DNA from: Gordonibacter sp. 28C
GTDB lineage: Bacteria > Actinomycetota > Coriobacteriia > Coriobacteriales > Eggerthellaceae
Length of the DNA: 64,000 nt
Reading direction: 5' to 3'
NCBI RefSeq assembly: GCF_003339845.1
Contig: NZ_PPTR01000007.1
Span: forward strand, 1-64,000
Shown: positions 1,763 through 6,686 of the stretch, in pieces
How positions within the stretch are numbered: the first letter of the stretch is position 1
How the letters are laid out: every line of letters starts with the position of its first letter
Made by a program: the position numbers and the translations under genes
The notes under the pieces: generated by a model
The model's input: only the letters and a program-made list of their open reading frames with translations
What the model was told of the DNA's origin: nothing
The model's database searches: none

Positions 1763-2488
1763 CTAGTCCCCGCTCTCCACGCTTTCCGCCTCCCACCGTA
1801 TGCCGAGCACCTCGGGCATCGAGAGCAGCTGGGCGAGCGCGTCCTCGATGTTCTCGTCGTCGCGGGAAAGCGTGAACACGGTCGCCGAGACCACGACGAT
1901 GTCGCCCGGCTGGTCGGTCGAGGAGATGGACCGCACGACGAAGCCGGGCCGATGGACCGCGTCGAACACGATGTCGCGGATGACGAGCTCGTCGTCGCGC
2001 ATGCAGCGGACCTCGAACGTGTACTCCGTTCCCATCGACTCGCGCGCCTCCGGGGCGGTCTCGCGGCCGTCGAGCAGGGACGCCACGGGGCGCAGCAGCA
2101 TGTTGGCGCCCATGACGAGAACGCTCCCCAACGCCGCGAGCCACATGAGGCCCGCCCCTGCCAGCGTCCCCACGGCCGCCGACGCCCACAGCGTGGCGGC
2201 CGTGTTGATGCCCGACACGGCCGCGCCGTGCTTCATGATGACGCCTGCGCCCAGAAAGCCGATGCCGGAAACCACCTGGGCGGCGACGCGCGACGGGTCG
2301 CCGTACCCCATGCCCTCCGGCACCATCAAGGCCCCGGCCGACGTGAACAGCGCCGCGCCGAGGCAGACGAGCGCGTTCGTTCGAATGCCCGCCGCTCGCC
2401 CGCGCCACTGCCGTTCGAAGCCTATCAGGGCCCCGAACACCAAGCCGGCGAGCACGCGCGATACGATCTCTAAGTCCAAAACGTCCAC
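1763..2488 (-). CDS. mgtC: MgtC/SapB family membrane protein
   Basis: MgtC-type inner membrane protein, 241 aa. The N-terminal half carries the family signature (GALIGFERQWRGRAAGIRTN, then GIGFLGAGVIMK) and about five membrane segments in residues 1-135; the C-terminal soluble domain (about 150-235) is of the ACT-like kind usual for longer MgtC proteins. The family is linked to growth in low magnesium and, in pathogens, to control of ATP synthase and survival in host cells. It is the last gene of a minus-strand run mgtA - 50-aa protein - mgtC. The start is GTG at 2488, preceded by AAGGAGG at good spacing. Confidence 0.9.
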   Translation of the reverse strand: MDVLDLEIVSRVLAGLVFGALIGFERQWRGRAAGIRTNALVCLGAALFTSAGALMVPEGMGYGDPSRVAAQVVSGIGFLGAGVIMKHGAAVSGINTAATLWASAAVGTLAGAGLMWLAALGSVLVMGANMLLRPVASLLDGRETAPEARESMGTEYTFEVRCMRDDELVIRDIVFDAVHRPGFVVRSISSTDQPGDIVVVSATVFTLSRDDENIEDALAQLLSMPEVLGIRWEAESVESGD

Positions 2489-2793: not shown

Positions 2794-5571
2794 TCACAAA
2801 AGCTCTCCGTAGTGGCGCACGTACGCCTTCTTGAGACTGGTCGCCAGCGCCATGTACAGCAGGATGCAGGGGATCAGGTAGGCGAAGTACGCGCCGGGCA
2901 GGGGCGCCAAGCCGATGGCCGCGCCGAACCCGGTGAACGGGATGCAGGTGAGCACGGCGATGCCGGTCATGGTGAGCAGCATGACCGGGGCCGACGCGCG
3001 GCTCTGGATGAACGGCAGCTTCGGCGTGCGGATCATGTGGATGACCAGGGTCTGGCTCCACATGGACTCGACGAACCAGCCTGCCTGGAACAAGGCCACG
3101 TAGGCGGTCTGCATGTCGAGCAGCTGCGCCCCGCTGTACACGGTCGCCAAATCGTTGTACAGCACGCCGCCCGAGACGAACGCCGGGCAGAACACGAAGT
3201 ACATGAACAGGTAGGTGGTGAAGTCGAAGATGGAGCTGGTGGGGCCGATCCATATCATGAAGCTCTCGATGGACGATGCGTCCCACTTGCGCGGCTTCTC
3301 CAGGAACTCCTTGTCCACGTTGTCCCACGGGATGGCCATGCACGACAGGTCGTAGATCAGGTTCAGCAAGATGAGGTGCACGCTCTCCATCGGCAAGAAC
3401 GGCAGCAGGGCCGACGCGGCCAGCACCGAGAACATGTTGCCGAAGTTCGAGCTCGCCGTCATCTTGATGTACTTGATCATGTTCGCGTAGGTCTTGCGCC
3501 CCTCGACGATGCCCTCCTCGAGCACCATGAGGTCCTTCTCCAGCAAAATGATGTCGGCCGACTCCTTCGCCACGTCCACCGCCGTGTCCACGGAGATGCC
3601 CACGTCCGCCGCCTTCATGGCGGCGGCGTCGTTGATGCCGTCGCCCATGAACCCCACGGTGCGGCCGCCCGCGCGCAGCGCCGTTACCACGCGCGCCTTC
3701 TGGTCGGGAGAGAGCTTCGCGAACACCTGCACGACCTCGGCGGCCGCGGTCAGTTGGGCGTCGGTCAGCCTATCGACGTCGGAGCCCAGCAGCATCCGGT
3801 CCACCTCGAGGCCCACCTGGCGGCAGACGGTGCGCGCCACCTTGTCGTTGTCGCCCGTCAGTATCTTCACCGAGACGCCGTGCTGCCGCAACGCGGCGAT
3901 GGCGTCCGCCGTGGACTCCTTCGGCGGGTCGAGGAACGCCAGGTACCCCATGAGCACCATGTCCGACTCGTCGGCCACGCTCAGCACGCCCACGGGGGCG
4001 GGGTCGCTCTTCTGCGCCAGGGCGATGACGCGGAACCCGTCCTCGTTCAGATCGTCCACGGTGCGCAGGATGTCGGCCTTCACGTCGTCGGTCAGCGGCA
4101 TGACCTCTCCGTGGTACTCGGCGTGCGAGCACACCGCGAGCATCTCCTCCACGGCGCCCTTGGTGACCATCTGCACCTTGCCGCACCCGTCCCGCACCAC
4201 GGTGGACAGGCGGCGCCGGGCGAAGTCGAAGGGCAGCTCGTCGATCTTCTCGTACGCGCTCGACAGGTCGACGAGCTGCGGGTTGGCCGCCTCCTCCTCT
4301 TCGGTCTTCTGGATGATGGCCACGTCCATGAGGTTCTTGTACCCGGTCTGGAAGTAGCTGTTCAGGTACGCGTGGCGCAGCACGCGCACGTCCTCGTTGC
4401 CGTGCACGTCCAGGTGGTACTCCAGCACGACCTTGTCCTGCGTCAGCGTTCCGGTCTTGTCGGTGCACAGCACGTCGATGGCCCCGAAGTTCTGTATGGA
4501 GTTCAGGTTCTTGACGATGGTCTTCTTCTTGCTCATGGACACGGCGCCCTTGGCAAGGCAGGTGGTCACGATCATGGGCAGCATCTCGGGCGTCAGCCCC
4601 ACGGCGATGGAGATGCCGAACAGGAACGCCGACAGCCAGTCGCCCTTCGTCAAGCCGTTGATCACGAACACCAGCGGCACCATGACCAGCATGAAGCGGA
4701 TGAGGACCCACGACACCGCGTTGACGCCCTTGCTGAAGCTGGTCTCCACGGCCTCGCCTGCGGCGCCGGCCGTTATGGAGCCGAAAAGCGTGTCGTCGCC
4801 GGTCGCCACGACGACCGCCGTCGCGCTGCCGGAGATGACGTTCGTTCCCATGAAGGCGAGGTCCCTGCAGTCGGTGAGGTTCTCGAAGTCCTCTACGGGC
4901 TCCGGCGTCTTCTCGATGGGCTCGCTCTCGCCGGTGAGGGACGACTGGGCCACGAAGAGGTCCTTCGCTTCGAGCACGCGCACGTCCGCGGGGATCATGT
5001 CGCCCGCCGACAGCTTGACGATATCGCCCACGACCACGTCGTCGAGCTCGAGCTCCTGCTCCCCGCCCGGCTGGCGCACGACGGTGCAGGTGGTGGTTAT
5101 CATGGCAAGCAGCTTCTCCGCCGCGTTGCCGCTGCGCGTCTCCTGCACGAAGCGGAGCGTGCCCGAAAGGATCACCATGACGGAGATGATGACCACCGTG
5201 GTGGGGTCGACGTCTTCGGGCGTGCCGTCGAACAGAGACAGCGCCGGGAACAGCACGTCGGTGCAGACGGACACCAGAACCAACACGGTCAGAATGGCCG
5301 TGAAAGGGTTGACGAACGCCTCGACGAGGCGCCGCCCCAAAGACTTGCGCTTCTCGTGGGTGACCTTGTTCGAGCCGTATTCGGCCCGTGCGCGCACGAC
5401 CCCTTCGTCGCCCAGCCCGGCCATCGACGAGCTTGTGCTGCGGAGCACGACGTCGGAGCTATGCTGGGCCGCATAGCGCAGACGCGCTTCGCATGCCTCG
5501 CGCCAGGGCTGGAGCGCGCTTTTCTTGTCGGCCGCTTCCCTACGGGTAACGACCTGCTTCTCCAAATTCAT
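2794..5571 (-). CDS. mgtA: Magnesium-translocating P-type ATPase (P3B)
   Basis: P-type ATPase importing Mg2+ at the cost of ATP, 925 aa, full length for MgtA/MgtB. It shows the actuator loop SLTGES (about residue 212), the phosphorylation motif DKTGTLT (Asp about 371), the hinge motif [19 protein letters not shown] and about ten membrane helices. The C-terminal helices include the MgtA-like AIPWDNVD segment. I place the start at the ATG at 5571, preceded by GGAGACAAGG. The frame stays open for 50 more codons upstream, but that stretch is better read as leader: it overlaps a short ORF with its own strong ribosome site. It is followed by a 50-aa membrane protein and mgtC, presumably one transcript responding to magnesium. 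Confidence 0.95.
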
Positions 5572-5674
5572 ATCCTTGTCTCCTTCTCCGAGAGAATGCA
5601 AGGCGCGCATGCCGAGGCAAGGAGAGGGCCGAGAGGGACGCGCCGAAGAGGGCGGGTTCCGCACAGCCGTTCCG
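5572..5674 (-). promoter_or_regulatory. C-rich mgtA leader, candidate Rho-dependent attenuator
   Basis: On the minus strand the roughly 100 nt between the leader ORF stop and mgtA are rich in C and CT runs and poor in A (about 5600-5660). That is the composition expected of a Rho-loading (rut) region. No intrinsic terminator hairpin with a U run is visible. Together with the leader ORF upstream this fits the architecture known for enterobacterial mgtA, where leader translation controls Rho termination. This is inference from layout. Confidence 0.4.
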
Positions 5675-5734
5675 TCACCTGAGCAACACGCACAGCATTG
5701 CGTTGCTAGGTCCAGGTCCATCGTCCGATTTCAT
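5675..5734 (-). CDS. 19-aa leader ORF upstream of mgtA
   Basis: ATG ORF of 19 codons reading [19 protein letters not shown], with an AGGAGG ribosome site 8 nt upstream, one of the best in the window. It starts 43 nt after the end of the 108-aa gene and stops 103 nt before mgtA. The early part is acidic and proline-containing (SDDGPGP). In Salmonella the mgtL leader also begins with Asp/Glu and Pro codons, where low Mg2+ makes ribosomes unstable and this switches on mgtA. Here the resemblance is in position, length and residue type, not in alignable sequence. Confidence 0.6.
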
Positions 5735-5777
5735 GATGCCCACCTCCTCTGGTTGGCGGTTTCGTATGCCGAACGCT

Positions 5778-6104
5778 CTAACGGGCGAGCGCAGCGGTGT
5801 TGACGTAGCGCTTCGACTTGCTGATGAACACGGCGTCGGCGCAGGCCGCGACGGACCACAGCGCCATCAGCGGACCGAGCGCCGCTTCGCGAAGCCCGGG
5901 CACCAAGCCGCAGGCCAGCAATACGGCGCCGCACAGCATGACGATGCAGCCGAGGTTCCTGTTGACGCGGCGCAGGTTGACGCGCGCCTTCTCGCTTTCG
6001 GGAACGGCCCTCCATGCGCGGGAACGGGACAGCGCGCTGCCCCGCAAAAACGCCGCGCCTGCGACGAATACCGGGACGGCGAACAAGATGCACAGGGTGC
6101 CCAT
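5778..6104 (-). CDS. Small membrane protein, DUF3784-like
   Basis: A 108-aa protein with a hydrophobic N-terminal helix (MGTLCILFAVPVFVAGAAFL), a basic middle stretch with RVNLRRVNRNLG, and two further hydrophobic segments. Size and layout recall DUF3784 membrane proteins; the assignment is tentative and function is unknown. The ATG at 6104 has GGAGG 7 nt upstream; an in-frame ATG 29 codons earlier lacks a ribosome site. It lies just upstream of the mgtA leader ORF on the same strand, so it probably belongs to the magnesium transcript. Confidence 0.7.
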   Translation of the reverse strand: MGTLCILFAVPVFVAGAAFLRGSALSRSRAWRAVPESEKARVNLRRVNRNLGCIVMLCGAVLLACGLVPGLREAALGPLMALWSVAACADAVFISKSKRYVNTAALAR

Positions 6105-6336: not shown

Positions 6337-6435
6337 TCAACGTAAGGGGAATCTGACCGAGGCAAGGCATACACGAAACCGTCCCGTGCAAAGCACGTAG
6401 CTTCTACTTCGACCAGAGCTACTGTCGGTACTCAT
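6337..6435 (-). CDS. Possible 32-aa leader ORF
   Basis: ATG ORF of 32 codons, beginning MSTDSSSGRSRSY and rich in Ser, Arg and Cys. GAGGTGAGG precedes the ATG at suitable spacing. It is the first ORF after a promoter-like TATACT at 6511-6516, and lies 232 nt before the 108-aa gene. It may be a second leader peptide of the magnesium transcript. Codon use is not informative at this length, so it could be chance. Confidence 0.35.
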   Translation of the reverse strand: MSTDSSSGRSRSYVLCTGRFRVCLASVRFPLR

Positions 6436-6474: not shown

Positions 6475-6516
6475 GCCGTGTTCGAGAGCGAGGCCCCGAA
6501 CACGGCTCGCAGTATA
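6475..6516 (-). promoter_or_regulatory. Promoter with 5'-terminal hairpin
   Basis: On the minus strand a TATACT -10 (6516-6511) is followed within about 5 nt by a perfect 10-bp stem, gccgtgttcg / cgaacacggc (6475-6484 with 6497-6506), with a 12-nt loop. A transcript starting here would begin with this stem, a layout that often stabilises mRNA. The -35 is weak (TTCGCA, 19-nt spacer). It likely serves the 108-aa gene and mgtA. Confidence 0.5.
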
Positions 6517-6686
6517 ACCCTACCTTGGCGAGATTTGCGAATTTTGTTACTAAACTTTACAGAGGGGTTCCGTGAAGGGACGCGAAGGCTCGCGCGCCGC
6601 CATGTCCGGTAAGAGCCCGGCGCGGGGCTCCGTCGGGTCTTTCGGCTGGCGGGATGCGCGTCCGGCCCCGCGCGGAGCCCTTGCTC

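Follow-up and report, generated by a model that had tools for sequence, protein, structure and literature searches.

Acidic nascent chains that destabilize ribosomes are known as a Mg2+ sensor from E. coli and Salmonella. In the leader peptide MgtL, ribosomes drop off at low Mg2+ at Glu2 and Asp4 of an EPDP sequence, and the output of mgtA depends on these two residues (PMC11282234). Rho-dependent termination in the 5' leader also has its precedent in MgtL (PMC11282234, PMC11552253). Salmonella mgtQ is an 8-codon upstream open reading frame (uORF) with Asp2 and Glu5 that is located between mgtC and mgtB. Its RNA forms either helices 1:2 and 3:4, the latter enclosing the mgtB ribosome site, or helix 2:3, with energies of −12.3 kcal/mol for 3:4 and −16.4 kcal/mol for 2:3 (PMC8092293). 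The M-box riboswitch (ykoK, RF00380) is likewise a Mg2+-responsive leader element 5' of Mg2+ transporter genes, and in M. tuberculosis it controls a uORF (PMC12810186). The closest known system to the locus described here is Salmonella mgtQ, with acidic codons of the MgtL type. In the open-licence papers searched, no precedent for control by acidic codons in Gram-positive bacteria was found, the M. tuberculosis M-box uORF being the only case that turned up, and this absence is weak evidence of novelty.

The window, i.e. the whole stretch of 64,000 nucleotides that was analysed, encodes a Mg2+-translocating P-type ATPase, MgtA, which scored 1136 bits against TIGR01524 (cut-off 611). The gene begins at 5571, which differs by one base from the 5572 given in a preliminary description, and its start is preceded by AAGGAGA (Table 1). 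The short ORF directly 5' of this Mg2+ transporter gene, ORF2, has a ribosome site of its own. It runs on the minus strand from an ATG at 5734-5732 to a TGA at 5677-5675 and has the Shine-Dalgarno (SD) match AGGAGGTG just 5' of the ATG, in agreement with the 19-codon ORF and strong ribosome site described earlier. Its early acidic residues are Asp4 and Asp5, and these open the sequence Asp-Asp-Gly-Pro-Gly-Pro at positions 4-9. The ORF2 stop is separated from the mgtA start by 103 nt. Judged from conservation, ORF2 is likely a regulatory leader linked to mgtA. The earlier statements that the leader has no intrinsic terminator and no M-box also held: no terminator-like site was found in the window leader, and neither an M-box (RF00380) nor another credible Rfam family was detected 5' of mgtA in the window. 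A mir-763 match in the window (E 0.1) was weak and dismissed as a chance hit. The predicted folding stability of the window leader was not unusual (z +1.3).

Table 1. Positions of the leader, the mgtA operon and putative regulatory segments in the window.
Feature	Position	Strand	Remarks
mgtC family gene, 3' of mgtA	1763..2488	-	Pfam PF02308, 1.2e-36
mgtA, Mg2+-translocating P-type ATPase	2794..5571	-	TIGR01524/NF011702 above cut-off
mgtA Shine-Dalgarno region (AGAAGGAGACAAG)	5575..5587	-	predicted target of a switch (buried or exposed)
Pyrimidine-rich anti-SD segments UCUCCUUGCCUC (5625-5614) and CCUUG (5603-5599)	5592..5625	-	pairing probabilities, duplex prediction
C-rich, A-free stretch, putative Rho loading site	5611..5656	-	25 C, 10 G, 0 A
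Leader ORF2	5675..5734	-	19 codons; acidic/proline codons 4-9; class recurs 5' of mgtA in relatives
Shine-Dalgarno region of ORF2 (AGAGGAGGTGGGCATC)	5735..5750	-	
Small membrane protein gene, DUF3784	5778..6104	-	Pfam PF12650; sits 5' of the leader in many Clostridia
ORF1, second candidate leader ORF (MSTDSSSGRSRSYVLCTGRFRVCLASVRFPLR)	6337..6435	-	SD GAGGTGA; 5' of the DUF3784 gene
Candidate operon promoter region with TATACT	6511..6550	-	by eye only

The operon contains further small genes. The DUF3784 gene matched PF12650 with an E-value of 8.8e-7 in the window and 2.4e-24 in Clostridia. ORF1 resembles a Collinsella mgtA leader, MSGSDSTSNAGRS, a likeness that is nominal only (21/500 shuffles), and the window operon may carry two acidic leaders, ORF1 and ORF2. 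The candidate promoter was not recovered by a consensus promoter scan. Between mgtA and mgtC there is a 50-codon ORF for a membrane peptide (MDWKELWTALFGTVDFMGLNMGF...; 2685-2533, minus strand) with a good SD, which had no match in Pfam or NCBIfam and whose placement is reminiscent of Salmonella mgtR/mgtU.

To compare the leader with its relatives we collected a set of 189 regions (171 distinct over 200 nt) that lie 5' of mgtA in Clostridia and Coriobacteriia, and called leaders solely from the start codon, an SD match of at least 6, the distance and the length, with no peptide criterion. A short SD-called ORF was present in 120 of the 189 regions, giving 95 distinct starts, while about one third of the regions had no SD-called leader. 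Asp or Glu occurred within codons 2-5 of 90 of the 95 distinct starts, against a background, under the same SD rule elsewhere, of 23% of 231 short ORFs and 39% of 332 long ORFs. The binomial probability of this enrichment is 5e-51 with relatedness ignored; the leaders are nevertheless widely different in sequence. The pattern M[DE]x[DE] was found in 34 of the 95 leaders vs about 0.5% of the background, and the few leaders that lack early acidic codons include MKKGVR and MKPRKPPP. The alignment of mgtA upstream regions that had been proposed as a check therefore shows a recurring class of ORF and gives good support to a leader peptide of the Mg2+ type whose early codons are acidic. The acidic start is kept, but leader length (mostly about 19-37 codons) and the C-terminal parts vary. 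In mixed sampling of the wider phylum few clear leaders appeared, and mgtA starts are badly defined there. At one locus (L117) a leader-like sequence 5' of mgtA, GAGGTGAGACCAACGGAACCTGACAGTACC, reads T-E-P-D-S-T with ACG at the position of the start codon, which has apparently been lost or is non-standard.

This variability bears on simple translational coupling, in which ORF2 would be a reinitiation feeder or encode a small functional protein without any sensing of Mg2+. The ORF of several Clostridia stops at the mgtA SD or extends into it, as such a role would predict. However, the acidic start is retained while the C-terminal parts and length vary widely, and in the window 103 nt lie between the ORF2 stop and the mgtA start, so that we consider coupling of this kind highly improbable.

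Whether the leader is conserved as peptide or as RNA was addressed with 34 Clostridial leaders, selected without a peptide filter, by permuting alignment columns. These leaders have the consensus M-D-S-D-G-S-P; 30 of them have an acidic codon 2 and 32 an acidic codon 4, the latter written as GAC, GAT, GAA or GAG. The protein-level score was reached by 0/1000 column permutations. On this alignment the start of the Clostridial leader is conserved as a peptide; the coding signal was not significant in any of the three Coriobacterial groups. If the leader instead acted as RNA alone, it would be the RNA structure that keeps the ATG region conserved, and the peptide would be incidental. A GGACU...AGUCC hairpin over codons 2-7 could indeed form in 94% of cells of the alignment, and coding bases take part in the switch helices described below. 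The hairpin showed no double changes, and the RNA-only reading based on it was rejected. Third codon positions vary, all four acidic codons occur at codon 4, and a strong SD precedes the ATG, leaving a pure RNA element very improbable.

The prolines allow for another signal, i.e. attenuation by an amino acid or tRNA, with the leader responding to proline or charged tRNA and not to Mg2+ via acidic codons; such sensing of proline or charged tRNA has been described for Salmonella mgtP (PMC8092293). Proline is found in the first 10 residues of 28/34 Clostridial leaders and 53/95 of all leaders, and ORF2 of the window has two Gly-Pro pairs. Acidic residues are more constant than proline, though, and 42/95 leaders have no early proline, which makes this kind of attenuation quite improbable.

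The RNA structure of the Clostridial leaders was examined with RNAalifold on an alignment of 20 leaders (A1). The segments involved are, in order, the leader start ACAUGGA (1), leader codons ca. 9-15 (2a), UCCRUGU (2b), the anti-SD segment CUUGCCUC (3) and the mgtA SD GAGGUAAG (4). Segment 3 pairs either with the mgtA ribosome site (4) or with leader codons 9-15 (2a). Pairing of helix 3:4 was seen in 92% of cells, compared to 37-62% when slid, and that of helix 1:2b in 96%, compared to 21-54%. Neither of these two helices showed covariation, as expected because one side of each is a ribosome site. In helix 2a:3 double changes occurred at 9 of the 12 pairs, in 18 cells (counts uncorrected for relatedness); 18 cells were reached by 0/500 shuffles and 9 pairs by 14/500. 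Among 40 leaders, cognate 2a:3 duplexes had a mean energy of −18.2 kcal/mol vs −14.9 kcal/mol for non-cognate ones (permutation 0/20000). Helix 2a:3 crosses 1:2b and also overlaps with 3:4, which would make the two states mutually exclusive; alternatively, 1:2b and 2a:3 might coexist as a pseudoknot. The covarying structure of the Clostridial leaders suggests that mgtA is controlled at the level of translation, through its ribosome site, as with mgtQ. Two loci (L046 and L092) have very long or strong alternative leader helices 5' of mgtA that end at the anti-SD. These helices lack a U-run and are therefore not intrinsic terminators.

To predict how translation of the leader affects the mgtA SD, a 29-nt ribosome footprint was blocked codon by codon, with dinucleotide shuffles as control. 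In 42 leaders near mgtA the SD was more exposed with the ribosome on codons 1-3 and buried with the ribosome at codons 7-15. The exposure contrast was 0.195, compared to −0.033 in shuffles, and 29 of these loci beat all 12 shuffles. No ribosome-dependent exposure of the SD was predicted for 46 leaders far from mgtA, mostly from Coriobacteriia. For the window, predicted exposure of the mgtA SD was 0.32 without a ribosome, 0.80-0.86 with a ribosome at codons 5-11 and 0.23-0.24 at codons 15-17. A maximum statistic, in which the early and the later position are both free, was reached by 0/400 shuffles, in what is a thermodynamic prediction for one sequence. The anti-SD segments of the window, UCUCCUUGCCUC and CCUUG, are complementary to parts of AAGGAGACAAGG. 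Because the helices predicted for the window are unlike the Clostridial ones, the likeness is one of common behaviour and not of demonstrated structural homology.

The preliminary description had suggested an MgtL-like output, in which Rho would end transcription before mgtA. At high Mg2+, full translation of ORF2 would expose the C-rich stretch at 5656-5611 to Rho, and at low Mg2+, upon loss of the ribosome, RNA structure would hide it. The leader was called C-rich and A-poor, which does not apply to the whole 103-nt gap (C minus G of 8, reached by 18% of 103-mers) but does to this 46-nt stretch, which contains no A and is in the top 0.2% of window 46-mers before correction for choosing the best segment. 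The genome has a rho gene, MgtL is a precedent, and the SD switch is absent from the far Coriobacterial leaders. On the other hand, the stretch is only mildly unusual at the given GC content, the covarying helices in Clostridia contact the mgtA SD directly, and in the window SD exposure is predicted to vary with ribosome position. Rho-dependent termination is thus not the best-supported output and we consider it unlikely, yet the rho gene and the C-rich stretch keep it a candidate.

The leaders considered here share with mgtQ a short intergenic ORF with a strong SD and acidic codons near the start, ahead of a Mg2+ P-type ATPase gene and in an operon with mgtC. Clostridial leaders furthermore resemble mgtQ in that alternative helices set the access to the transporter ribosome site, with similar helix energies (cognate 2a:3 mean given above), whereas for the window the likeness is confined to a predicted ribosome-dependent exposure. 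The present leaders differ in being longer, in using leader codons 9-15 for the alternative helix and in belonging to other phyla; the sequence relation shown is limited to the acidic start. Some members of the class are accompanied by an M-box, and in the window mgtC comes after mgtA. MgtL is similar in being 5' of mgtA and in the acidic codons 2 and 4 of EPDP, which compare with D-S-D-G-S-P in Clostridia and DDGPGP at positions 4-9 in the window. It differs in its placement, as MgtL is encoded in a 5' leader and the present ORF lies between genes, and in the Rho-dependent termination reported for it, whereas exposure of the SD is better supported here. By inference from these comparisons, the present class would work like mgtQ and MgtL.

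The best named relatives of the window mgtA are from Clostridia, at up to ca. 75% identity, which makes it most likely that the gene was transferred between phyla. Comparable mgtA sequences were found in 0 of 4 other genomes of the genus and in 4 of 138 genomes of the family, with its own genome included. Given the identity to Clostridial mgtA, the earlier suggestion that the leader evolved independently in this actinobacterium does not hold; the leader class is common to Clostridia and other Coriobacteriia. The usual gene order in Clostridia is mgtA1, a DNA-binding regulator (Trans_reg_C only), mgtC, DUF3784, the leader ORF and mgtA2, with variants. In 52 of the 189 mgtA upstream regions (among L033-L112, e.g. 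L049, L062 and L109) a direct repeat TCGCAAG-N4-TCGCAAG was located ca. 35 nt 5' of a TATACT promoter element. The gene 5' of these repeats encodes an OmpR-type DNA-binding protein in which no receiver domain was matched, and the promoters are candidates for a Mg2+ regulon. The repeat was not convincing in the window, where spacings differ.

At eight loci (L032, L119, L197, L199, L200, L208, L209 and L211) both an M-box and a called leader are found near the mgtA start. The M-box, which the window lacks, is thus additional to the acidic leader in these related loci and precedes it where positions were checked. In L032, a member of the window's family, the M-box is at 336-493, the leader MDGDEPSRR at 592 and the mgtA ATG at 862. 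The co-occurrence supports the view that the gene is under Mg2+ control but does not bear out the leader mechanism. At such loci (L032:336-900 and the seven others) a single gene would have two putative Mg2+ sensors.

We consider it fairly probable that ORF2 is a uORF which couples Mg2+ to mgtA via acidic codons, with SD exposure as the output. From E. coli and Salmonella we infer that the acidic codons of ORF2 may drop ribosomes at low Mg2+. The Ser-Asp-Asp-Gly-Pro-Gly-Pro codons near its start would then destabilize or pause ribosomes, and with the ribosome held or lost there the leader RNA would fold with the mgtA ribosome site exposed. With ample Mg2+ the ribosome would complete ORF2, the anti-SD would pair with the mgtA SD and mgtA would stay off.

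More broadly, we see about an even chance that ribosome destabilization by acidic codons is a widespread Mg2+ sensor of Gram-positive gut bacteria of the Clostridia and Coriobacteriia, which spreads across phyla with mgtA operons and acts as a translational attenuator, in some lineages together with an M-box. If so, conservation of the class in both Clostridia and Coriobacteriia would turn this into a general bacterial strategy, provide dozens of natural variants for dissecting which codons sense, and account for control of mgtA in gut commensals that have no M-box there. Whether the mechanism is of ancient or convergent origin would become directly testable.
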